Shown here one piece after another: positions 50,216-60,882 of a DNA stretch of 64,000 bases. The position numbers were made by a program, and so were the translations under genes. The stretch's first letter is position 1. The number at the start of each line of letters is the position of its first letter. The DNA is from a candidate division KSB1 bacterium (GTDB lineage: Bacteria > Zhuqueibacterota > Zhuqueibacteria > JANLFK01 > Oleimicrobiaceae). The notes under the pieces are model-generated. The model did not search any database. It saw only the letters and a program-made list of their open reading frames with translations, and was not told the origin of the DNA. Location: NCBI GenBank assembly GCA_024655945.1, contig JANLFK010000003.1, positions 186,001-250,000 of the forward strand, given 5' to 3'.

Positions 50216-52888
50216 TCAGTGCAGGCGCACAAGCTTCGTGGTCGTCACCAGGTTCGGGAGTCTTGCCTGCACCAGATAGATGCCGGAAGGAACTGGCACG
50301 CCTGATGAGTCTCTTCCGTCCCACGGCAGACGGTGCCGACCCGCCTCCAGTGGGCCTCGGGCCAGCAGGCGCACCCTGCGCCCGAGCAGGTCGTACACTG
50401 CCACCTCCACGGCGGCACATCCCTTCTCGAGCTGCAGGAGGACCGTCGCACTGGCCTTGAAAGGATTTGGGTAGACAGCGAGCGGCCCCTGTTCACCAAC
50501 CGCCGTGCGAACCCGGATGGGCAAGGAGAAGTTTTGCTGGCGCGGCGCATTGGTCATCACCAGCAGGCGCGCCCGGGCATCCTGCTGCGCACAGCAGCGG
50601 ACCGAAAGCGAAACGGTCCCACCTGGTGGCACGGCACCCTCTGTGGGCTCGACTTCCACCCAGGGCGCGAGTACGTGGGTGCGGAGCAGAGCAAGGTCGC
50701 CGCCGCTGTAGCCTTGTCCGAGAGGCGGCCATGCCACTGCCTGGCTCTCCAGGGGGCGATCTCCCAGCCGCTGCGCAAAAAACGAAAGGCGAGGCCAGGT
50801 CTGGTCCGGGCCAGCGACTGCCTGCAAGGCGATGCGCGCCTCCATCACCGCGCACGGCAGGCCATGTTCATCGACGCCCTGCCCATGCTCTACCGTGAAG
50901 GCCGGCTCTGCGTACCAGCGCTGCTCCCGGGCAGCGGCCTGCGACGACGAGCTGGCGATGAGGCTCATGCGCGGTCCGTCCGGCGCCGACTTTAATTGGA
51001 CGCCGATCACATAGCGATCGGCATCCCGCAAGAAGTACCATTGCTGCCGCACGAAGAGCCAGTCTGCGTTGTTCTTCAGCTTGATGGTGCCGAGCACCTC
51101 GCCGTCACTGGCCACGGGCACTTCTGCTGCGTCCCACCAGCGCGCGGCGTCTAAGGCGTGCGGCACAACCTCAGCTGGCGGCGACAGAGCCTCGGTTGTC
51201 TCCTTTCCTTCTGGGAGCACCCGCGTCCGAAAGAGCATCAGGCCGTCACCCCGATTGGTCAGGCGGACAGCCTGCTCGCCACAATGCCCCGGGCGCACGA
51301 AGAGGCTAATCTCCTCAGGATGCACAGCTGCCAGCACCTGGCCCTGCACTGACGAGGCAAGAAATCCGGCAGATGGGAACCTGGCCTGGCAGCCCGAAGC
51401 GTCGCGAGCCACCAAGAAGTAGCGCACCGAGGTACCGCCCTCCTGAGGCGGGACGAGCCCTTGCCACCAACGGTGGCCGAGGGAGGCCAACGGCAGGCAG
51501 TGGAACTGCGCAAGGCTGTCCTGGGCATAGCAGAGCGTCACCTCCTCCGCGCGGTGGTCATCGAAGACCTCGCACTCGACCACATGGGGCTCACGCGTGG
51601 CAACTGCCGCCGGCAGGGGGCGTACCTGGCCAAACCGTGGCGGCTGATTCGGAACCAAGACGTCCACAAAAATGGTGTCGGCCCTTTGCCCGCGAATCCG
51701 GATGGCCACCCCCGTGTCGACGTCCTGCACAAGGCTGTCCGTCGAGCCTTCCACCAGGCGATAGCCCTGCGAACTGGGGTTGGTGAGCGGCCCGAAGTGG
51801 TGGCCGCCTGCCGTGGGCGAGCCGCTGCGGAAGAAGTCGGCCGCCGAGCCAGTATAGTCCGGCGAAAGATCCAGCGAGTCCAAACCGGCGATGCGGTCGG
51901 GAAGACCGGCCGTGTACAAGCCGGCGGCGCTCTCCACGTCCCACACCTCCGGCCCACTCCTGGGCAAGCCATCGTCCACCTTGATGTGCCAGATGAGCAA
52001 TCCCCTCCCCGCGTATGCCGCGTCGTAGTCAGTCCCCTGATGGTTGCACACCCAGAAGTACTGGTTTGGCGTGGCGAAGATGCGCAGCACCGTGCCGCCC
52101 CGCCGCATGTCCGCCAGCGCAACGTTGCACAGCGTGTCCGTCACTTCCACCACCTGTGCAGCGTCGAGCCACCCCACGCGGTAGAGGTTCTCCACACATA
52201 AAGGCACCAGGCGATGGACCTTGGCGTCCATCAGGCAGTAGTCCGCGAAGTATTTTCGCTCATACCCCGGTGGGTGGACAAATCCGAGCAGATGGGCGTA
52301 CTCGTGGGCGACAAGGCCGAAGAACATCTCCTTCGGCTGCACGTCCACCAGAATGCCCGGGCCGCGGTAGGCCGCGACCGCCGCACAGGGGAGATAGGCC
52401 ACGCCGGAAACGCCCGGCAGGCAGTCTTGGAGAAAGGCTAACACCAAGACGTCCGTAGCCGCCAGGCCCTCGGGGTGGTCCCTCGCTAATGCGTTAACCA
52501 CCTCTGTGCACAATCGGGGCAGGTCTGTAGTGGGGTTGAATTCTGCGTAGCTGGAGCTGGCGAGGTAACATCCAGTTCCCGACGCCCGACGCAGGAGGGT
52601 GTGCATCCTGGCGTGCTGCCGCCCACGTGACATTTTGAGAAAGTAGTCTGAGAAGAGAGTTTCCAGTTCCTGCCAAAATGGCGGCACCAGCGTGTCCGCC
52701 TGGTCGGGGAAGGCAACGTAGGCGATGCTGACCAGGACGCTGTCCCCGCCGGCCTGGGCGGTCACGGAAGCCACGCTCGGCGGCGTCCCGCAAATTCCCA
52801 ACGCGGGCGCGCGAACGCCGCCGTGCGCCAGGGTTGTGCCCGCCAGCACCACGGCAACTGTCATCCCAACGGCTATTCGGGACTTCAT
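50216..52888 (-). CDS. Secreted M6-like metalloprotease with C-terminal FlgD-Ig/sorting module
   Basis: An 890-residue exported protein with a signal peptide (MKSRIAVGMTVAVVLAGTTLAHG). The catalytic site is LVAHEYAHLLGFVH, HExxHxxGxxH at residues 195-205, in the setting of the M6/immune-inhibitor-A-like secreted proteases (early VLVSIAYVAFPDQADT, later YCLMDA, FWVCNHQGTDYDAAYAGRGLLIWHI). Beta-rich regions (about 400-800) follow, and the end is an FlgD-Ig module: AVYPNPFKASATVLLQLEKG, VAVYDLLGRRVRLL, LPWDGRDSSG. M6 enzymes are usually processed outside the cell. No ribosome site is clear. It lies after the FHA-TonB-like gene by 172 bases, and may or may not belong to that operon. Confidence 0.8.
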   Translation of the reverse strand: MKSRIAVGMTVAVVLAGTTLAHGGVRAPALGICGTPPSVASVTAQAGGDSVLVSIAYVAFPDQADTLVPPFWQELETLFSDYFLKMSRGRQHARMHTLLRRASGTGCYLASSSYAEFNPTTDLPRLCTEVVNALARDHPEGLAATDVLVLAFLQDCLPGVSGVAYLPCAAVAAYRGPGILVDVQPKEMFFGLVAHEYAHLLGFVHPPGYERKYFADYCLMDAKVHRLVPLCVENLYRVGWLDAAQVVEVTDTLCNVALADMRRGGTVLRIFATPNQYFWVCNHQGTDYDAAYAGRGLLIWHIKVDDGLPRSGPEVWDVESAAGLYTAGLPDRIAGLDSLDLSPDYTGSAADFFRSGSPTAGGHHFGPLTNPSSQGYRLVEGSTDSLVQDVDTGVAIRIRGQRADTIFVDVLVPNQPPRFGQVRPLPAAVATREPHVVECEVFDDHRAEEVTLCYAQDSLAQFHCLPLASLGHRWWQGLVPPQEGGTSVRYFLVARDASGCQARFPSAGFLASSVQGQVLAAVHPEEISLFVRPGHCGEQAVRLTNRGDGLMLFRTRVLPEGKETTEALSPPAEVVPHALDAARWWDAAEVPVASDGEVLGTIKLKNNADWLFVRQQWYFLRDADRYVIGVQLKSAPDGPRMSLIASSSSQAAAREQRWYAEPAFTVEHGQGVDEHGLPCAVMEARIALQAVAGPDQTWPRLSFFAQRLGDRPLESQAVAWPPLGQGYSGGDLALLRTHVLAPWVEVEPTEGAVPPGGTVSLSVRCCAQQDARARLLVMTNAPRQQNFSLPIRVRTAVGEQGPLAVYPNPFKASATVLLQLEKGCAAVEVAVYDLLGRRVRLLARGPLEAGRHRLPWDGRDSSGVPVPSGIYLVQARLPNLVTTTKLVRLH

Positions 52889-53060: not shown

Positions 53061-54410
53061 TCAGCTCTCGCGGTAGAAGACGAAGGGGTAATTCACCACC
53101 ACGGTGCCACTTTCTATGGGCTCAAAGCGCCAGCGGCGCACCGCATTTACCAGTTCGTTGAGGAACTCGCGATCGGAGATGGTGCTCTCCACCACCTCCA
53201 CCTTGCTTACCAGCCCACTGGCGGTAATGGTGATGTCCAGGCTGACTTTGCCTTGCAGATTCGGGTTTCGCTTCAGGTACTTGTTGTAGATATAGGTGAT
53301 GCGCCCCATGTTGGCGCTGACCACCGCGCGCAGAGTTTCTGGGTCGCGACGGCCACGCGCCTCCTCGCTCCCGGTCACTGTGGCGGTGCGCTCAACAGAG
53401 ACAGTCCCCTCCTTCTTCAACTCCACGCTTGGCACGGATGAGTCCAGGTCGCCGAGCAGGTCGTCGATGCCGCCGCGTTTTGTGGCGTCAAACAGTTCCT
53501 CCAGGCCGGAGCCTTTGCTACTGCCGCCTCCGTTGCGCCGCCCCACGCGCAGGTCGGTTTCGCCCGCCACCGCCGCCAACTCATGCACCAGCCCTTTGTC
53601 CATCAGGATATCCACCAAACTGCCGGAGCGCCCCCCTTGGCCCGTGCCGGAGATGAGGCCCAGCAACCCCTTGCTGGTGACGGTCCTGCCCTCGCCCCCA
53701 CTTCGCTCGCCGCCACCGCGTTGTCCTTCCGAGGAACGCTCCGCCCCCTCTGTTTTCGGCTTTTCTGCCGTGGCGGGCGCCACCCCGCCGCGCCCTGTAT
53801 CCGCGACCGGCGTCAGCTGCGAGCGCACCACAAAGCGTGCAAAGCGCTGCGGCACCTTCTCTAAGTCAACCGGCTTGCGCTCGGTAATGGTCATGCCGCT
53901 CAGTTGCCACACGGTCAAACCCACGACCAGAAGCAAGCTCGCCAGCACCAACTTGAAGAGCGGCTCGTCAGTGAACCTCTTGAGCAGGTTGTGGCCAAGT
54001 GAAAACTCCGTCGCCTGCGGAAGTACCGCCACTTTGGCCTTTTCGCAGGCAAAATCGACGCGCACCGGCCCGACGGTCAGAGAGCCCTGTTTGCCAGGCA
54101 GCAAAGGCAGAAGGTAGGAATTGGCCCGCCTGGGCAGCAAGCCGTGCTTCACCAGGTCGCGCACGTTGAGGCGAGAATCATCAACCCACACTTCACCGTG
54201 AACAAAACCCTGGATCTGGGCAACAAACCTCCCATTCAGCCAGCCAATCAGGACGTGGCGCTCCGGAAAGTCCTCTCCATAGACGACCACATCGTTGCCT
54301 GGCGACCGCCCCACGGTGAGCCGCTCCCCCTCGCCCAGCACACGCTGGCTCACGCCATCGCCCTGGCTCACCCTGACCCGCAACTGTTGGACTATGCGCT
54401 CTTTTGCCAT
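53061..54410 (-). CDS. FHA-domain inner-membrane protein with AgmX/TonB-like C-terminus
   Basis: A 449-residue bitopic protein. ATG 54410 was chosen so that it opens with an FHA-like fold: LTVGRSPGNDVVVYGEDFPERHVLI (about 31-55). A single membrane span, LFKLVLASLLLVVGLTVWQL (about 150-170), is followed by a long Gly/Ser/Glu-rich low-complexity linker (about 205-290), then a C-terminal domain: DPETLRAVVSANMGRITYIYNKYLKRNPNLQGKVSLDITITASGLV...FLNELVNAVRRWRFEPI, the AgmX/PglI/TonB-like pattern. In Myxococcus proteins of this architecture (GltG, GltJ) link the cytoplasm to the periplasm in the Agl-Glt complex. It directly follows two ExbD genes and ExbB, so it is likely the transducer moved by that motor. 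Confidence 0.85.
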   Translation of the reverse strand: MAKERIVQQLRVRVSQGDGVSQRVLGEGERLTVGRSPGNDVVVYGEDFPERHVLIGWLNGRFVAQIQGFVHGEVWVDDSRLNVRDLVKHGLLPRRANSYLLPLLPGKQGSLTVGPVRVDFACEKAKVAVLPQATEFSLGHNLLKRFTDEPLFKLVLASLLLVVGLTVWQLSGMTITERKPVDLEKVPQRFARFVVRSQLTPVADTGRGGVAPATAEKPKTEGAERSSEGQRGGGERSGGEGRTVTSKGLLGLISGTGQGGRSGSLVDILMDKGLVHELAAVAGETDLRVGRRNGGGSSKGSGLEELFDATKRGGIDDLLGDLDSSVPSVELKKEGTVSVERTATVTGSEEARGRRDPETLRAVVSANMGRITYIYNKYLKRNPNLQGKVSLDITITASGLVSKVEVVESTISDREFLNELVNAVRRWRFEPIESGTVVVNYPFVFYRES

Positions 54411-54475
54411 CTGTTCCGCGTCACCCTCACCAACCCTGACCACCCGCGTGCATCGCTCTCGAAACTCATGCCCGT

Positions 54476-54988
54476 CTACTCGGTGCGCAGCACTGCGAGG
54501 TTCATATCGTTGTACCCCATGCGGCCGCACGTGACCATGACCCGCTTAAGCAGCTCAAACGGGGTGCTCTTGTCCCCCTGGATGGTGATGTTGCCGGCAA
54601 ATGAGCTCACCGCGCCCAGTTGGCCGATCCCTTCGGTCAATGCCCGCAAGTCCTGAAGTTCTTTGAGCAGAGCAGCGATCACCAGGTCGCTGCGCGCCAA
54701 AACGTCGGCGTTGCGCACGATGGGCCGCCCGTCCAGCAGAATCCATTCGCGCGTGAGGGCCACGATTGAGGTCGTCTTCGGCGGCAAGGTGGCAGTGGAC
54801 TGCGGCAGGCGCAAGTCGCGCGCAATAGTCATGATCTGCCCCTCGGCCGAGTAGCTCTTCAGCAGGAACACCAGCAAGATGGTGAACATGTCGATCATCG
54901 ACGTCAGCCGCAAGGTAAAGCTGCCGGTGCGGCTCCGTCGCCGGGTTGGAAACAGCTGCCACCCTGTGCTCTCTGTGGAAAGGTTCAT
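54476..54988 (-). CDS. ExbD/TolR-family protein with intact proton-channel Asp
   Basis: A 170-residue protein with one N-terminal membrane span. FTLRLTSMIDMFTILLVFLLKSYSAEG contains Asp33, the position that corresponds to the essential membrane Asp (D25 in E. coli ExbD). The periplasmic part has DLRLPQSTATLPPKTTSIVALTREWILLDGRPI and ends in the ExbD fold with '.I.GDKSTPFELLKRVM.TC...GY...N.AVL'. In the Exb/Tol/Mot motors, five ExbB chains surround a dimer of this subunit, and proton flow through the Asp drives motion. It lies 65 bases upstream of the FHA gene and 21 bases after the first ExbD. Confidence 0.9.
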   Translation of the reverse strand: MNLSTESTGWQLFPTRRRSRTGSFTLRLTSMIDMFTILLVFLLKSYSAEGQIMTIARDLRLPQSTATLPPKTTSIVALTREWILLDGRPIVRNADVLARSDLVIAALLKELQDLRALTEGIGQLGAVSSFAGNITIQGDKSTPFELLKRVMVTCGRMGYNDMNLAVLRTE

Positions 54989-55009: not shown

Positions 55010-55468
55010 TCAACCAGCCAACGAAATGTTAGGAAAACCCGCCTCTCGGCAGGTGTCCATCACCTTGACGATGACTTCGTAGAGAATTGTGGAGGCTGGG
55101 GAGATGACGATGTCCTCGCTCTCCGGGTACTTGGCCTTCACCGCCTTCAGCTGCGCGGTCAGGCCCTTGTAGTCAAAGGCGCCACCCACCTTAGGAAGCT
55201 TCGGGTGGTTCATGTAGGGGCTGTTCAGCTGAAAGCCATCCTCCTCCACCGCCAGAATGTTGAGGATCGCCGGTTTGTCTTGGGCAGCGACGGCGCTCTT
55301 GCGCCCTGCAGCCGGCAGGGAGAGCTCCAACACGGCGATCTTCACGAAAACCGCGGTCAACAGCAAGAAAGGGACGAGGATGAGGAAGAGATTCATGACG
55401 CCGATGATATTGACGTCGGCCTCGCCGCGAACCGTGCCCCTGCCGATTGCCGCCTTCAAGTTCATCAC
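55010..55468 (-). CDS. Second ExbD-like protein, channel Asp replaced by Asn
   Basis: A 152-residue ExbD family protein. ATG 55468 overlaps the ExbB stop (ATGA). The single membrane span reads VNIIGVMNLFLILVPFLLLTAVF; where the usual motif has Asp (as IDMF in its neighbour), it carries Asn26. The periplasmic domain is well kept: '.I..DGF.L', DYKGLTAQLKAVKAKYPESEDIVISPASTILYEVIVKVMDTCREAGFPNISL. A subunit pair with one active and one neutral chain is plausible (ExbD works as a dimer), so this is probably not a decayed gene. Assignment firm, channel role inferred. Confidence 0.86.
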   Translation of the reverse strand: MMNLKAAIGRGTVRGEADVNIIGVMNLFLILVPFLLLTAVFVKIAVLELSLPAAGRKSAVAAQDKPAILNILAVEEDGFQLNSPYMNHPKLPKVGGAFDYKGLTAQLKAVKAKYPESEDIVISPASTILYEVIVKVMDTCREAGFPNISLAG

Positions 55469-56103
55469 TTGCCTCCGCGCACCGTCAACCCTTGAAAGAT
55501 GCGCGCCACGCTCTCATTGATCTCGTCGACGATGCCGTTGGTCTTCTCCTGCAGGTAGCCGTAGGCCAACAGGCAGGGGATGGCCACAATTAGGCCAAAG
55601 GCCGTGGTGTTCATGGCCTGCGAGATGCCCACCGACAATAGCTCCGCTTTCTGCGCTGCTTCTGCTTGCGCCACCGCCTGGAAAGAGACAATGAGACCGA
55701 AGATGGTTCCCAAGAGCCCGAGCAGCGTCGCCACATTGGCGATGGTAGAGAGGTAGTGGGTACGTTTCTCCAGCTTGGGCACTTCCACCAAGGCGGCCAG
55801 CTCGAAGGCACGCTGCACGTCCTTCTCACCTCCGCCGTTCTGGAACTGTTCCAGGCCAGCCCGCACGATGCGCGGCAGGGGCGCCTCCGAACGCCGCGCG
55901 TACTCGATAGCCCTCGCCACGTTGCCGGAATGCACTAACTCCTGAATGCGGTTCACAAATGCAGGGGTATCGATGCGCGTCCTAAACGCTAACACGATGA
56001 TACGCTCGATGGCTATCGCATAGCCGAATACCATCGCTAAGGCGATGACATACATGAACGGCCCACCGTGCTTGAAAAACGCCGCAATGGTCTCCAAACT
56101 CAC
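55465..56103 (-). CDS. ExbB/TolQ/MotA-family motor stator protein
   Basis: A 212-residue inner-membrane protein of the MotA/TolQ/ExbB family. The GTG at 56103 follows GAAGGAGGGC. Three membrane helices: FMYVIALAMVFGYAIAIERII (about 16-36), then after a long cytoplasmic stretch LSTIANVATLLGLLGTIFGLIVSFQAV (about 118-144) and SQAMNTTAFGLIVAIPCLLAYGYL (about 160-183). The 'A..ATLLGLLGTI.G.I' and 'AL.TTA.GL.VAIP' family motifs are both present. It forms the pentameric proton-driven stator with the two ExbD proteins, with which it overlaps or nearly touches. Confidence 0.93.
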   Translation of the reverse strand: MSLETIAAFFKHGGPFMYVIALAMVFGYAIAIERIIVLAFRTRIDTPAFVNRIQELVHSGNVARAIEYARRSEAPLPRIVRAGLEQFQNGGGEKDVQRAFELAALVEVPKLEKRTHYLSTIANVATLLGLLGTIFGLIVSFQAVAQAEAAQKAELLSVGISQAMNTTAFGLIVAIPCLLAYGYLQEKTNGIVDEINESVARIFQGLTVRGGK

Positions 56104-56169: not shown

Positions 56170-56544
56170 TCACCAGGGGATGTAGTCCCGGGCGTGGCGG
56201 TTGAGCGTCTTGCGCACCACGTCGCGTTCCACCGGCCGAAAGATTTCCTGGAAAAAAGACCGGTCGATGCCGATGTCATCCACGCGTGGATCGGTCCCGG
56301 GCACGATGAACACCGCCTGCGGCTTCTCAATGCGCCCGAGCACTTCGATCTTGTTCAAGATGATCTTGACCGCATCCTCGCCCACCGACGGGTCACGGCT
56401 GCTGACCTTTTGCTCCACGTCGGAGACGATCTTGTTGAGTTTCTCCTCCACAGGCTTCTGCGGCGCTCCTGCCACGCTCACCATCCCGCTGAGCATGGCC
56501 AGGCAAATGGCCGCCAGCCAGCGGAGGTTACTACATCCACGCAT
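56170..56544 (-). CDS. Small secreted protein of unknown function in the Exb operon
   Basis: A 124-residue exported protein that I do not recognise. ATG 56544 lies seven bases after AGGGG and three bases after the TPR gene stop. The signal peptide (RWLAAICLAMLSGMVSVAGA) is followed by a charged helical stretch, EEKLNKIVSDVEQKVSSRDPS, then AVKIILNKIEVLGRIEKPQAVFIVPGTDPRVDDIGIDRSFFQEIFRP. Its position between the large TPR protein and ExbB with almost no gaps indicates that it is part of the same envelope complex; a periplasmic adaptor is a guess. Confidence 0.7.
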   Translation of the reverse strand: MRGCSNLRWLAAICLAMLSGMVSVAGAPQKPVEEKLNKIVSDVEQKVSSRDPSVGEDAVKIILNKIEVLGRIEKPQAVFIVPGTDPRVDDIGIDRSFFQEIFRPVERDVVRKTLNRHARDYIPW

Positions 56545-56547
56545 CGC

Positions 56548-59460
56548 TTACCCCTTGTTCGTCCCAGGCCTCTGGGCCGGGCCCAGGCCGCCTTCCGTAC
56601 CGAGTTCGATGAGCAGCGCCTGCATGCGCTTGCGGCTTTCGGCAACCCACTCGTTCTCGATATTGCTCTCCTCAGCCCGCCTGACATTGGCCCGGTAGGT
56701 CTCCAGCGCCTGCACCTTGAATGGCTGGGCGGTCTCTGCCAGTTTCTCGTCATAGGTGAGGCGCTCATCAGGCGTCAGGTTGTCAGGCCGGGGCGACTCG
56801 AGGAACGCTCGCACAAACTCTTCAAAGGCAAGGCCAATCCGGTAGGACGCGGCCGTAGCCCATTCGGCGACCTTGTACTTGGCCGCTTCCTTGTACGCTT
56901 CAAGGACCAGCCTCAGCTCGTCGCGCTTGCGAGCGAGATTCTTGTCCAGCGGTGGCACCAATTGGATGCGACAATATTCATCGAAATGGATTTCGCCGAG
57001 CATGAACTGGGCATGGGCGGCCACGTAGTCATCAACCACCACGCCGCGCAGGATGTAGGTGTTGTACTGGCTGATGGTCTTGGCGAATGCATCCTGCGCC
57101 GCCCTGAAGTCTCGCTGGCGGAAGGCCATGTCGCCCACCTTGAACATCACCTCCAGGTATTCATCTGGCTCGGCCCCACCAAGAGCAACGTAACGTTCGT
57201 AAGCGCGGCGCGCTCCTTGCCAGTCCTGCAGATTTTCGCAGCAGGAGCCGGCGTGGAACAGCGCGCGCTGGGCGTACTTGGAGTTAGGCACCAGCTCCAC
57301 CAGCCGCCCAAAGTCCTCGGCGGCCTCGCGCCATTGGCCGAGCCCTTGCCGCAGAACGCCGGCGCGGTACAGGGCCTCGTCGACCAGGGCGCTGCGCGGA
57401 TGTCGGCGCGGTAACTGTTCGAAGAGCGCAACCGCCTTTTCGCTCTCCCCCTCTTTCTCCCGCAGGAGTGCCGCCTCGTACAGGGCCCGCTCTGCTACCT
57501 CCGGATCGCTGGCCGAAGCAGCGAGCTGCTCAAAGCCGGCGGCCGCCTCTGGCAATCGCCCTACATCCCGCAAGCTCTCGGCCGCCTTGAAGCGTGAGGA
57601 AGCGATCATGCGGTTTGCCCGCTCGGCAAACTCGGCCGAATCCGCGTAGGTAGTTGCCAGTCGCTGGTACCACTCCTCCGCCTTCTGGTAGTCTGCATTC
57701 TTGAAGTACGACTGGGCGATCATGTTCATGGCCTGGGCGGTGTAGGGACCGCGTTCCGCCATCTCTGCCACCTTGCGGTACGCCTGCACCGCCAGGTCGA
57801 AATTACCCAGCCCGTAGAGTGTCTCGCCCAACTTCATGAGCACCTCGGTGCGCTTGGGACTCTGCGACAGGAAGCGTTCAAAGTCGTTGCAGGCCTCCAC
57901 CAACCGCGCCTGATTAGGATGCGCCACCACCACAGCCTGCATGATGCCCGAGGCCAAGAAGTCGTCAATGTACGCCGTGACAGTATCGGCCATGGCGCCC
58001 TTTTGGCAGAGGTTGTAGTAGCAGAGGATACGGTTGTAAGCTGCCTGCTCCTTGAACGTTGTCTCCTCGTACTGCGTCATGCACTGGTAGTACGCCTCGG
58101 CAGCCCCTTCGAAATCTCCCACCTCGTAGAGGCATTCGGCAAAGTAGTAGTTCACCCGATAGGCTTTCTCACCGCGGGGGAACTTGCTCAGGTATTGCGA
58201 GAACCTATCGATGGCCAGCCGGTAGTCGCGCACGCTGTTTCCCTCGTGCGCCTTTCGCTGGTAGTAGATGCCCAACTCGTAAAGCGCCTCTTGCGCCAAA
58301 TGCAGGGCGTCGCTACGGATTTCCCCCTCAGGATACTGGGCAAGCCATGCGCTGCCCGGGCCGAAGTTCGTGGCGAGCACTTCGCGGGCCTCGTTCGCCT
58401 TCTCCTCATCGCCGGCGCGCTCATAGGTCTCGACGATCCGCTTGTAGAGCAGCGGCGCATCGTGGTAGAAGGGAAACACCTCCAGCATCGTCTTGTAAGT
58501 CTCGATGGCTTCGTCGTAGCCGTTGCGCGCGTTGTAGGTGTCTGCCATCTTCAGGAACACCTGAATGGGGTAGTCTCGGCCTTGCTTCTTCTCGAAAAAG
58601 GCGCGCGCCTTGGAAGGCCCGCCGAATTCGGTGAACGAGGCGGCTACGTACTCGATGGCCTCGCGCCGCAAGTCGGCTTTACTCTTGTTCCCTCCTCCGG
58701 CAACTCGCTTGCCCGCCGTCAGGGCGGTGGTCTCCTCGATGAGGTAGACAAAACTGCTAATTGCATTGGCAAAGTCGTTGCTGTTGTAATATGACCAACC
58801 CAGCTTGTATAGCCCCATCTCAAAGTAAGGGCTATCCCACTTGTCGAGCAGCCGTCGGTAATGGTTGATGGCCTCCTGAAACTCGCGCCGCTCAAAGTAG
58901 TACTCGCCCAAGCGAAAGTTCACCTCCGGCGCCAGCGGGCTGGAGGGCACCTCAGCAAGAAGGCGGACAAAGTACTCCTTGGCCTTCTCGCGATTCCCCT
59001 CGTCGAGGTAGCTCATGCCCAGCCGGTAGAGGACCCGGTCCTTGAAGTCGACATTGGGGAACTTTTCCAGAAGCTTGCTTGCCGTAGCAATAGTCTTTTG
59101 CAGGTTGATACGCGGCATGACCGGCTGGATCGCGAGGAGGCCTTGGTCGTACTTGGCCATCTCTGCCTCGTAGAGCGTCATCTGCCGCTGGAATTCCAAG
59201 TCGGCTTTGCGCGCATACAGCTCTGCCAACTGGAACATGACGGTGGGGGCAAACTCGGAGGCCGGGTACTTGCTCAGCAACATCTCGTTTTCCTTGATGG
59301 CCTCATCGAGTCGCGCCTCTTCTAAGGGCGAGATCCGGCCCTCCTGGACCGATTGCGCCAGGGGAGCATGCACCGGCATGCCCACAAGAAGACAGACCAC
59401 ACCCAAGATGAGGAAGGCCCTCATGTGCTTGTTGCCAGAGTCATTCCACCTCTGCCGCAT
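56548..59460 (-). CDS. Large periplasmic TPR-repeat protein
   Basis: A 970-residue exported protein. ATG 59460 begins one base after the stop of the preceding TPR gene, with GGAG nine bases ahead. After a signal segment (MRAFLILGVVCLLVGMPVHAPLAQS), nearly the whole length consists of tetratricopeptide-type helical repeats: EKAKEYFVRLLAEVPSSPLAPEVNFRLGEYYF, EAIETYKTMLEVFPFYHDAPLLYKRIVE, AVQAYRKVAEMAERGPYTAQAMNMIAQSYF, and so on to about residue 900. It is a protein-interaction scaffold without a catalytic motif. Long periplasmic TPR proteins accompany ExbB/ExbD and AgmX-type proteins in the Myxococcus gliding cluster and related loci; the link here rests on context. Confidence 0.85.
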   Translation of the reverse strand: MRQRWNDSGNKHMRAFLILGVVCLLVGMPVHAPLAQSVQEGRISPLEEARLDEAIKENEMLLSKYPASEFAPTVMFQLAELYARKADLEFQRQMTLYEAEMAKYDQGLLAIQPVMPRINLQKTIATASKLLEKFPNVDFKDRVLYRLGMSYLDEGNREKAKEYFVRLLAEVPSSPLAPEVNFRLGEYYFERREFQEAINHYRRLLDKWDSPYFEMGLYKLGWSYYNSNDFANAISSFVYLIEETTALTAGKRVAGGGNKSKADLRREAIEYVAASFTEFGGPSKARAFFEKKQGRDYPIQVFLKMADTYNARNGYDEAIETYKTMLEVFPFYHDAPLLYKRIVETYERAGDEEKANEAREVLATNFGPGSAWLAQYPEGEIRSDALHLAQEALYELGIYYQRKAHEGNSVRDYRLAIDRFSQYLSKFPRGEKAYRVNYYFAECLYEVGDFEGAAEAYYQCMTQYEETTFKEQAAYNRILCYYNLCQKGAMADTVTAYIDDFLASGIMQAVVVAHPNQARLVEACNDFERFLSQSPKRTEVLMKLGETLYGLGNFDLAVQAYRKVAEMAERGPYTAQAMNMIAQSYFKNADYQKAEEWYQRLATTYADSAEFAERANRMIASSRFKAAESLRDVGRLPEAAAGFEQLAASASDPEVAERALYEAALLREKEGESEKAVALFEQLPRRHPRSALVDEALYRAGVLRQGLGQWREAAEDFGRLVELVPNSKYAQRALFHAGSCCENLQDWQGARRAYERYVALGGAEPDEYLEVMFKVGDMAFRQRDFRAAQDAFAKTISQYNTYILRGVVVDDYVAAHAQFMLGEIHFDEYCRIQLVPPLDKNLARKRDELRLVLEAYKEAAKYKVAEWATAASYRIGLAFEEFVRAFLESPRPDNLTPDERLTYDEKLAETAQPFKVQALETYRANVRRAEESNIENEWVAESRKRMQALLIELGTEGGLGPAQRPGTNKG

Positions 59461-59461
59461 G

Positions 59462-60847
59462 CTACCGCTCCTGTAGCCCTTCCTTCGTTGGCGTTCCACC
59501 CGTACCCCTGAGGAACAGGGCCCGCGACTTGCCATATTCCGCGTAGGCACGCCAGGTCTTGCGCTCCAGCTTCAAGTTCAGGTTCTCCCGCAGCGCCGAA
59601 ATGGTGCTATGCATCTCCAGGAAGCGTTGCTGCTCCTGGACAATGTTCTCCAGGAGGGCGCGCCGTGTCTCGTCGAGCCGCGCCTTTTCCTCCTTGAGAT
59701 GAGCGGGCACGCGCGATTGCCCACCTACCTGCAGCGCGTCCAGCAGGTTCGCCTCCAGCAGAAGCAAGTCCTCGCGTAAGCGCTCTATCTCTTGCTCCTG
59801 CGCACTCAGGAGACGGCTGAGCTGTTGCACCATTGCGGACAGATTGTCCTCTTCGGGAAACAGCTCGATGAGCTTATCGTACACCTTTACCGCATCGTCA
59901 TAGACACCAAGCTGCACATAACAACGACCCAGCAAAAACAGTGCCTCTTCACTCTTTGGGTCTTGGGGGAAGCGCGACACGAGAGTCATTAGCGGCGCTA
60001 CGGCCCCTGCATAGTCGGCCATCTTCACCGAGGCCCAGCCACAACCCAAGAGGGCCTCAGGGTAGCGGCGATGCTCGGCTGAAACGTCGGCAAAGTAGCC
60101 GCGCGCCTCTTTAAAGTAGCCTAGCTCATAGTAGAGATATCCCAGGGTGAGCCGACCCTCATCGACTACCGCACGACGCTCCTCTGATATTATCGGCAAA
60201 GAGACCAACTTGCGAAACACCGCTACCGACTTGGTCACCCGCTTCATCTTGAGTAGGGACAGGCCCACGGTATATAGGCCGTAGCCGTAGTAGTCGCTGC
60301 GCGGGTCCAGGTTGAGCAAGGCCTCCAGCGCGCTGGGATAGTCTTTGATGTTGTAGTAGCTCTGCCCCGCATAGTAACGGGCCTCGTCGTCGACGTCCAC
60401 TGGGCGGGGCGCCTGCAGCAAGGCCTCGTACAGGTTGAGGCTCTCCTGGTACCTGCCCTGCTTGTACCGCGTCTTTTGTAGGCCGAGCAGCCCCTTGGCT
60501 AACAAAGGGCTCCCGAAGTGGTTCTTCACCAGGTAGGTGTAGGTGGAACTGGCGGCATTGTAGAGTTCCATCTCATACAGGCAGCCCCCCAGCAGGAGGA
60601 GCACCTCGTCGGTTCTCTTGAATTCCGGATAGTAGTCCAACAGGAGCGCGAGGTCGCGTGCCGCTTGCCAATAGGAGCCTGACTTGATGTAAGATTTGGC
60701 TTCGCTCAGCAGCCGGTCGGCCACCCGCTCAAGATCGCGGTCGGCAGCGCGCCCCACTGCCTGCGGATAGGCCGAGACGCAACACGCCAGCCAGACGCAC
60801 GCCGCCAGGGCTATGTATCGCCATCCTGAAGACACCAGCACTCCCAT
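59462..60847 (-). CDS. Exported TPR protein with C-terminal coiled coil
   Basis: A 461-residue exported protein. The start is uncertain (ATG 60847 or GTG two codons later); the signal peptide is SSGWRYIALAACVWLACCVSA. Residues 40-320 are TPR-like: YWQAARDLALLLDYYPEFKRTDEVLLLLGGCLYE, NAASSTYTYLVKNHFGSPLLAKGLLGLQKT, SEEALFLLGRCYVQLGVYDDAVKVYDKLIELFP. The rest (about 330-440) is rich in heptads, SRLLSAQEQEIERLREDLLLLEANL and ETRRALLENIVQEQQRFLEMHSTI, a predicted coiled coil. It is followed with a one-base gap by the larger TPR gene, so the two are a matched pair. Confidence 0.82.
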   Translation of the reverse strand: MGVLVSSGWRYIALAACVWLACCVSAYPQAVGRAADRDLERVADRLLSEAKSYIKSGSYWQAARDLALLLDYYPEFKRTDEVLLLLGGCLYEMELYNAASSTYTYLVKNHFGSPLLAKGLLGLQKTRYKQGRYQESLNLYEALLQAPRPVDVDDEARYYAGQSYYNIKDYPSALEALLNLDPRSDYYGYGLYTVGLSLLKMKRVTKSVAVFRKLVSLPIISEERRAVVDEGRLTLGYLYYELGYFKEARGYFADVSAEHRRYPEALLGCGWASVKMADYAGAVAPLMTLVSRFPQDPKSEEALFLLGRCYVQLGVYDDAVKVYDKLIELFPEEDNLSAMVQQLSRLLSAQEQEIERLREDLLLLEANLLDALQVGGQSRVPAHLKEEKARLDETRRALLENIVQEQQRFLEMHSTISALRENLNLKLERKTWRAYAEYGKSRALFLRGTGGTPTKEGLQER

Positions 60848-60882
60848 CAGCCCCAAATCGGCCTGGGCAGCGTCGGCTACAG

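Follow-up and report, generated by a model that had tools for sequence, protein, structure and literature searches.

Two adjacent genes in the window, the 64 000-nucleotide stretch of DNA analysed here, raise the question of whether a motor of the ExbB–ExbD type can run with one of its two ExbD-family subunits lacking the proton-carrying membrane Asp. All window features given below lie on the minus strand. Read in the direction of transcription, the gene run contains a TPR protein with weak likeness to GltC (59462..60856; NF033756, E = 3.6e-6, far below the cut-off), a second, large TPR protein matching TPR families with YbgF/BamD-like repeats (56548..59550), a 124-residue protein with no Pfam match and a weak best NCBIfam match (56170..56544; E = 0.012), an ExbB/TolQ/AglR-like ring subunit that keeps the pore Thr residues of TM2 and TM3 (55465..56103; PF01618, E = 7.9e-31), the two consecutive ExbD/TolR-like subunits ExbD-1 (55010..55468; PF02472, E = 2.5e-18) and ExbD-2 (54476..54988; PF02472, E = 9.7e-13), and a linked protein with an FHA domain and a TonB-C/AgmX-PglI C-terminus, a GltG-like putative force transducer (53061..54530; NF033768, E = 7e-27, above the cut-off). 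Both ExbDs scored above the PF02472 cut-off of 25.4 bits (66.8 bits for ExbD-1 and 48.7 bits for ExbD-2) and are thus members of the ExbD/TolR family; the match of the FHA/TonB-C protein to NF033760 (GltG; E = 6.4e-23, 81.1 bits) was below the equivalog cut-off of 650. Of 55 trios, a trio being ExbB followed by two ExbD genes, 49 have a GltG-like gene as their immediate downstream neighbour. As judged by family matches, the set of ExbB, two ExbDs and GltG-like transducer is that of an Agl/Glt-type motor.

The ExbD-1 column assigned by alignment to the proton-carrying Asp is encoded by AAT (Asn, 55391..55393), and ExbD-2 carries Asp33 (GAC, 54890..54892). In the HMMER alignment, which is gap-free across the site, the Asp of E. 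coli TolR pairs with N26 of ExbD-1, and many ExbD-1 orthologues contain the motif [D/E]-[I/V/L]-N-[V/I/L]-T-P-x-x-N at the canonical spacing; the register is therefore secure. A preliminary description of the locus had reported Asp in one ExbD and Asn in its neighbour at this codon, which the sequence and the TolR alignment confirmed. A shifted alignment or a substitute acid lining the channel, the objections it had itself foreseen, were ruled out by the ungapped TolR alignment and by the lack of any acidic residue between positions −5 and +13 of the site in Asp-less ExbD-1 proteins (0/264); Glu or Asp at +14, at the periplasmic end, was present in 69 of these 264 and is not conserved. The GTG start of ExbD-1 (55468) directly precedes an ATG (55465), and since most orthologues begin M-N-L at that ATG, the likely start, the neutral residue is probably Asn25 rather than Asn26, and the overlap with ExbB is probably one base (TGATG) instead of the four bases described earlier. 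The accompanying claim that the Asn protein is intact stood: dN/dS of ExbD-1 within the genus was 0.022–0.039, and we therefore see no decay. Four ExbD-like proteins of the genome that lie outside such trios keep the Asp, including one tandem pair of the ordinary TonB type, and among the ExbD-like proteins of this genome Asn is limited to two trio ExbD-1 proteins. The notion that any tandem ExbD pair loses an Asp was ruled out by a tandem pair on contig C10 of the same genome that keeps both. On family score and alignment, ExbD-1 is a member of the ExbD family by descent, without the proton-carrying Asp.

In its own phylum, 76 of 82 genomes gave a match at E ≤ 0.001, and the 59 that hold a close orthologue all carried Asn in ExbD-1 (59/59) and Asp in the partner ExbD-2 (59/59). 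The alignment of orthologues suggested in the preliminary description as a check thus upheld its observation, and chance was ruled out by the fixation of Asn. A second, diverged ExbB/ExbD-1/ExbD-2 trio of the same genome, located outside the window (C3:150490-151516), has the same Asn/Asp arrangement, and in 61 copies of this paralogous trio (G028, G038 and G067 left out of the count) ExbD-1 had Asn in 60 and Asp in one, with Asp in all 61 partners. The single Asp-bearing ExbD-1 (L127, genome G078) lies inside an Asn clade and keeps the Pro at +7, a possible reversion; no ExbB was found at that locus. When genome contigs were scanned with the partner ExbD-2 as bait, which introduces no bias on the ExbD-1 residue, 80 loci were recovered, with Asp in every partner (80/80) and, for the 79 with an upstream subunit, Asn in 70, Ser in six and Asp in three.

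Matches to the partner were also found in 147 of 167 genomes of the Fibrobacterota group (at 1e-15), 13 of 14 of the Coatesbacteria group, 38 of 42 of the Fermentibacterota group and, for the Deltaproteobacteria/Deferrisomatales group, in 41 of 198 at 1e-3 and 14 of 198 at 1e-15; a plasmid search with the same protein gave no match. A total of 363 loci were scanned and contained a trio in 359, from which duplicates were dropped according to the last 120 residues of both ExbDs to give 276 distinct trios; loci L002–L012 and L246–L261 (own-genome or duplicate loci, and weak matches taken as ordinary ExbD) were left out before this count. In these 276 trios, a non-random sample drawn from loci hand-picked from the match lists, the partner Asp was invariant (276/276), and the ExbD-1 residue was Asn in 235, Ser in 14, Gly in 10, Cys in five and Asp in nine, with no residue assigned in three, making it non-acidic in 264 of the 273 with an assignment. 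Asp-less ExbD-1 occurred in loci labelled KSB1, Fibrobacterota, Fermentibacterota/Sabulitectum, Cloacimonetes and Deltaproteobacteria/Deferrisomatales, and in the Coatesbacteria group. On an ExbD-1 tree of 75 rows built with the trait column removed, in which many inner branches are weak and the position of the root is not fixed, three changes sufficed for acid versus non-acid and 14 were needed for the five residue states. Neutral residues therefore appear to swap often, with gain or loss of the acid being rare, and Asn itself appears dispensable. The Asp-less state is thus real, conserved and wider than the preliminary description could show, which covered neither its presence in several phyla, nor Ser, Gly and Cys besides Asn, nor the linked loss of an ExbB Glu and the natural ExbB–ExbD fusions described below.

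Loss of the Asp is accompanied by changes in both ExbD-1 and ExbB. The transmembrane helix of ExbD-1 has a Pro seven positions beyond the Asn (codon 55370..55372), and Pro at +7 was found in 256 of 264 Asp-less versus one of nine Asp-bearing ExbD-1 proteins. In alignments to ExbB and TolQ chains, a Gln codon of the window ExbB (CAG, 55618..55620) takes the place of Glu176 of E. coli ExbB. The equivalent residue was Glu in two of 255 Asp-less trios versus all eight Asp/Asp trios (L294 left out), and since, apart from L244, the Asp/Asp trios come mostly from a single clade, the comparison holds few independent contrasts. The TM2 pore Thr and the second Thr of the TM3 pair were kept in all trios examined. 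Because nearly all Asp-less trios are without the ExbB Glu and their ExbD-1 is without a substitute acid from −5 to +13, one of the two Asp and the Glu ring would have been lost from the pore together. The sequence AMNTT, with an Asn beside the TM3 Thr pair of ExbB, was present in 171 of 210 unfused Asn trios. At the position of the kink Pro141 of E. coli ExbB, the window ExbB has Thr in TM2, as do 253 of 255 Asp-less trios, and seven of eight Asp/Asp trios have Val (L294 again left out). All eight Asp/Asp trios (L184, L188, L192, L244 and L289–L292) carry an ExbB in which the TM3 pair starts with Cys rather than Thr.

In 20 distinct trios (L225, L226, L240, L242, L279, L280, L283, L286, L288, L303, L316, L317 and L351–L358), ExbB and an Asp-less ExbD, in this order, form a single ORF of about 435 residues, with ExbD-2 encoded separately; L294, which looks fused solely because of a masked run, was left out of this count and of the ExbB tree. 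The fused ExbD-1 has Asn in 16, Ser in two and Gly in two, both Pfam domains scored over the cut-off in the four fused ORFs tested (4/4), and the fusion requires one change on the ExbD-1 tree. A free second ExbB was found directly upstream in all 15 fused loci that had enough flanking sequence (15/15), 13 of which are also followed by a GltG-like gene. No such ExbB was found upstream of the 54 unfused trios that had 1 kb or more of sequence on that side (0/54). In the free ExbB, TM2 keeps its Thr and TM3 has TT or ST at the pair, some of the TM3 words being a shifted match. On the ExbB tree the free and the fused copies are sister clades (SH-aLRT 89 and 90), and within a locus they are 35–48% identical, which points to one duplication behind both. 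That both copies have been kept for so long suggests a mixed ExbB ring, in which the number of fused subunits would be fixed. Internal re-initiation giving free ExbD-1 from the fused genes was considered and rejected: a start codon with a ribosome-site-like word was found in none of the 20 linkers, and no start codon at all in five of them, by a crude and insensitive rule that finds such a start in 99 of 253 unfused genes. The free ExbB genes of the fused loci (L391–L405) have a conserved terminal tail of the type THNNIKIFTDNKLIKEI.

The placement of ExbD-1 was analysed from helix conservation, coupling and a structural model. Conservation was even round the circumference of the ExbD-1 (moment P = 0.86) and ExbD-2 (P = 0.33) helices, which fits helices enclosed in a pore, and ExbB TM2 and TM3 each had one conserved face (P = 0.003 and 0.012). 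Mean-field coupling analysis was performed on 263 trios (Neff 173 at 80%; L294 left out here and in the conservation analysis), which are related sequences, so that shared ancestry can add signal. The helices of ExbD-1 and ExbD-2 coupled in parallel register (same-depth mean 0.70 versus 0.27 for far pairs, with 0 of 2000 permutations as high), and this was lost when one helix was flipped (0.38 versus 0.44). ExbD-1 coupled to ExbB TM3 (0.34 versus 0.12, P = 0.034); its coupling to TM2 was not significant in the 263 trios (P = 0.156). Among neighbouring ExbB helices used as controls, TM2–TM3 behaved as expected, and TM1–TM2 and TM1–TM3 gave no signal in the same set; TM1 coupling is therefore uninformative on a peripheral position of ExbD-1. 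The AlphaFold model of ExbD-1 (pLDDT 82) has a helix at residues 21–49 and an ExbD/TolR periplasmic fold, with TolR (5by4) and ExbD (8pek) as top fold matches. Coupling and conservation would fit a putative 5:2 rotary motor, with five ring subunits and two axle helices in the pore.

The best reading of these observations, and in our judgement a probable one, is an asymmetric heterodimer. The ExbB ring would enclose one ExbD-1 helix and one ExbD-2 helix (5:1:1), protons would pass solely via the ExbD-2 Asp and past the Thr residues of the ring, and ExbD-1, kept neutral by selection, would serve as the passive half of the axle, its helix bearing the Pro, and hold the active half in a fixed orientation; the work would be passed to the GltG-like TonB-C protein. 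With one proton carrier there would be no alternating 36-degree steps between two Asp, and each proton would give one stroke from one site, either of 72 degrees or as a swing. We infer this complex, an asymmetric form of which had been proposed in the preliminary description, from the Asn/Asp fixation, the selection on ExbD-1, the invariant partner Asp, the even helix conservation, the helix coupling, the fusions, the extra free ExbB and the loss of the ExbB Glu, all of which fit it, the coupling being tempered by the relatedness of the 263 sequences, the silent TM1 controls and the P value for TM2. To this extent the proposal in the preliminary description is partly supported. The addition of a free ExbB at every flanked fused locus fits the need for an Asp-less subunit present once per ring. 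Against a one-Asp heterodimer, both AglQ and AglS of Myxococcus xanthus are reported, in the available passages of the papers, to carry the membrane Asp, the AglQ site being essential, and the neutral residue of ExbD-1 varies on the tree. A covalent ExbB–ExbD-1 join, as in the 20 fused trios, would not be tolerated by a free-spinning heterodimeric axle; the fusions suggest that one lineage or more has the neutral half-axle tied to the ring, in favour of a swing or of a role fixed to the ring.

The fusions might be taken further, with ring and Asp-less half-axle forming one mechanical unit, that is, a mixed (e.g. 4+1) ExbB ring with a dedicated fused subunit and a reciprocating motor derived from the rotary 5:2 family. 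We hold this to be possible but rather unlikely; if true, free spin would be impossible, leaving the lone Asp helix to oscillate or to move stepwise round a fixed one. The same fusions, with linkers that lack a recognizable internal start, would also suit an ExbD-1 that lies off the axle, in which case an ExbD-2 homodimer would form the axle and ExbD-1 a ring-bound arm outside the pore, for example holding the ExbB ring fast to peptidoglycan, with rotation left to the axle rather than the ring. Such an arm would not need the Asp, and N, S, G and C are all tolerated at the site; TonB and TolA, moreover, bind outside the ring according to the available part of PMC12215075. An arm remains doubtful to us, as the ExbD-1 helix has no variable, lipid-facing side and couples in parallel with the ExbD-2 helix, and the free ExbB of the fused loci would be superfluous if any ring subunit could bear an arm.

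It is improbable, in our view, that two homodimeric motors share one ExbB, with active ExbD-2 pairs and proton-dead ExbD-1 pairs acting as a competitive brake or reserve. Competition by dose would be a simple regulator, and the family scores of both ExbDs and the ExbD-type periplasmic domain of the ExbD-1 model are in keeping with it, but the strict gene pairing and the co-evolution in parallel register speak against it, and the fusion with its extra ExbB suggests a set ratio. An Asn that takes part in the proton path, through a water wire or a Thr-Asn relay, such that both halves conduct with one carboxylate, would accord with Asn being by far the commonest replacement (235/264) and with the ExbB Asn of AMNTT; we consider it very unlikely, because 15 of 264 trios have Gly or Cys here and another 14 have Ser, Gly offering no side chain for a relay. 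Decay, a sequencing error or an alignment slip in ExbD-1, for none of which any support was found, can be practically disregarded in view of the low dN/dS, the fixed Asn and the ungapped TolR alignment at the site.

The heterodimeric one-Asp motor favoured here was compared with the closest known systems. E. coli ExbBD (Ton) and TolQR (Tol) share with the window trio the ExbB ring with Thr148/Thr181-type residues, the ExbD fold and the register of the transmembrane site, but have identical ExbD or TolR chains, two Asp and ExbB Glu176, whereas the trio has one Asp and no Glu. The flagellar stators MotAB and PomAB share the 5:2 principle. The Asp-bearing partner has Asp-x-x-Thr, as does MotB; MotB chains are identical, and no Asp-less paralogue is known. 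The GldLM gliding motor is likewise proton-driven and, in the passages available, is compared with 5:2 motors, but has its critical acid, a Glu, in TMH2 of GldL and falls outside the ExbD family. In gene content the trio resembles AglRQS/Glt of M. xanthus, which also has one ExbB/TolQ-like and two ExbD/TolR-like genes, a GltG/AgmX-type TonB-C transducer and TPR proteins, and differs in the two reported Asp where subunit 1 of the window has none. According to the available text of PMC3169522, the core Agl/Glt cluster occurs outside Myxococcales, Fibrobacteres included. Sequence searches of the PDB gave no AglRQS-type entry. The available part of PMC9389320 poses as an open question if AglQ and AglS each pair with themselves or with one another; in the trios described here the sequences themselves divide the labour between the two chains.

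According to the available part of PMC12215075, rotary models of MotAB, ExbBD and TolQR all share two assumptions, a step of 36 degrees for each proton and a channel that switches between two essential Asp. The loss of Asp from one of two proton-carrying parts, kept across several phyla, is not predicted by textbook motor models, and the one-Asp class, being widespread, selected and incompatible with two-Asp alternation, offers a natural test of the rotary mechanism; if the one-Asp axle is true, models that alternate two Asp need revision. In the accessible portions of the open-licence PMC literature, no description of an Asp-less ExbD, a heterodimeric axle or a natural ExbB–ExbD fusion was found, nor was an Asp-less ExbD mentioned in those of PMC12505986, PMC12204202 and PMC10341847. 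The fused genes are ready-made constructs for structural work. Elsewhere in the window, positions 50216-52888 encode an 890-residue protein whose C-terminus is of the FlgD-like/Por secretion type and which also matches a metallopeptidase weakly.
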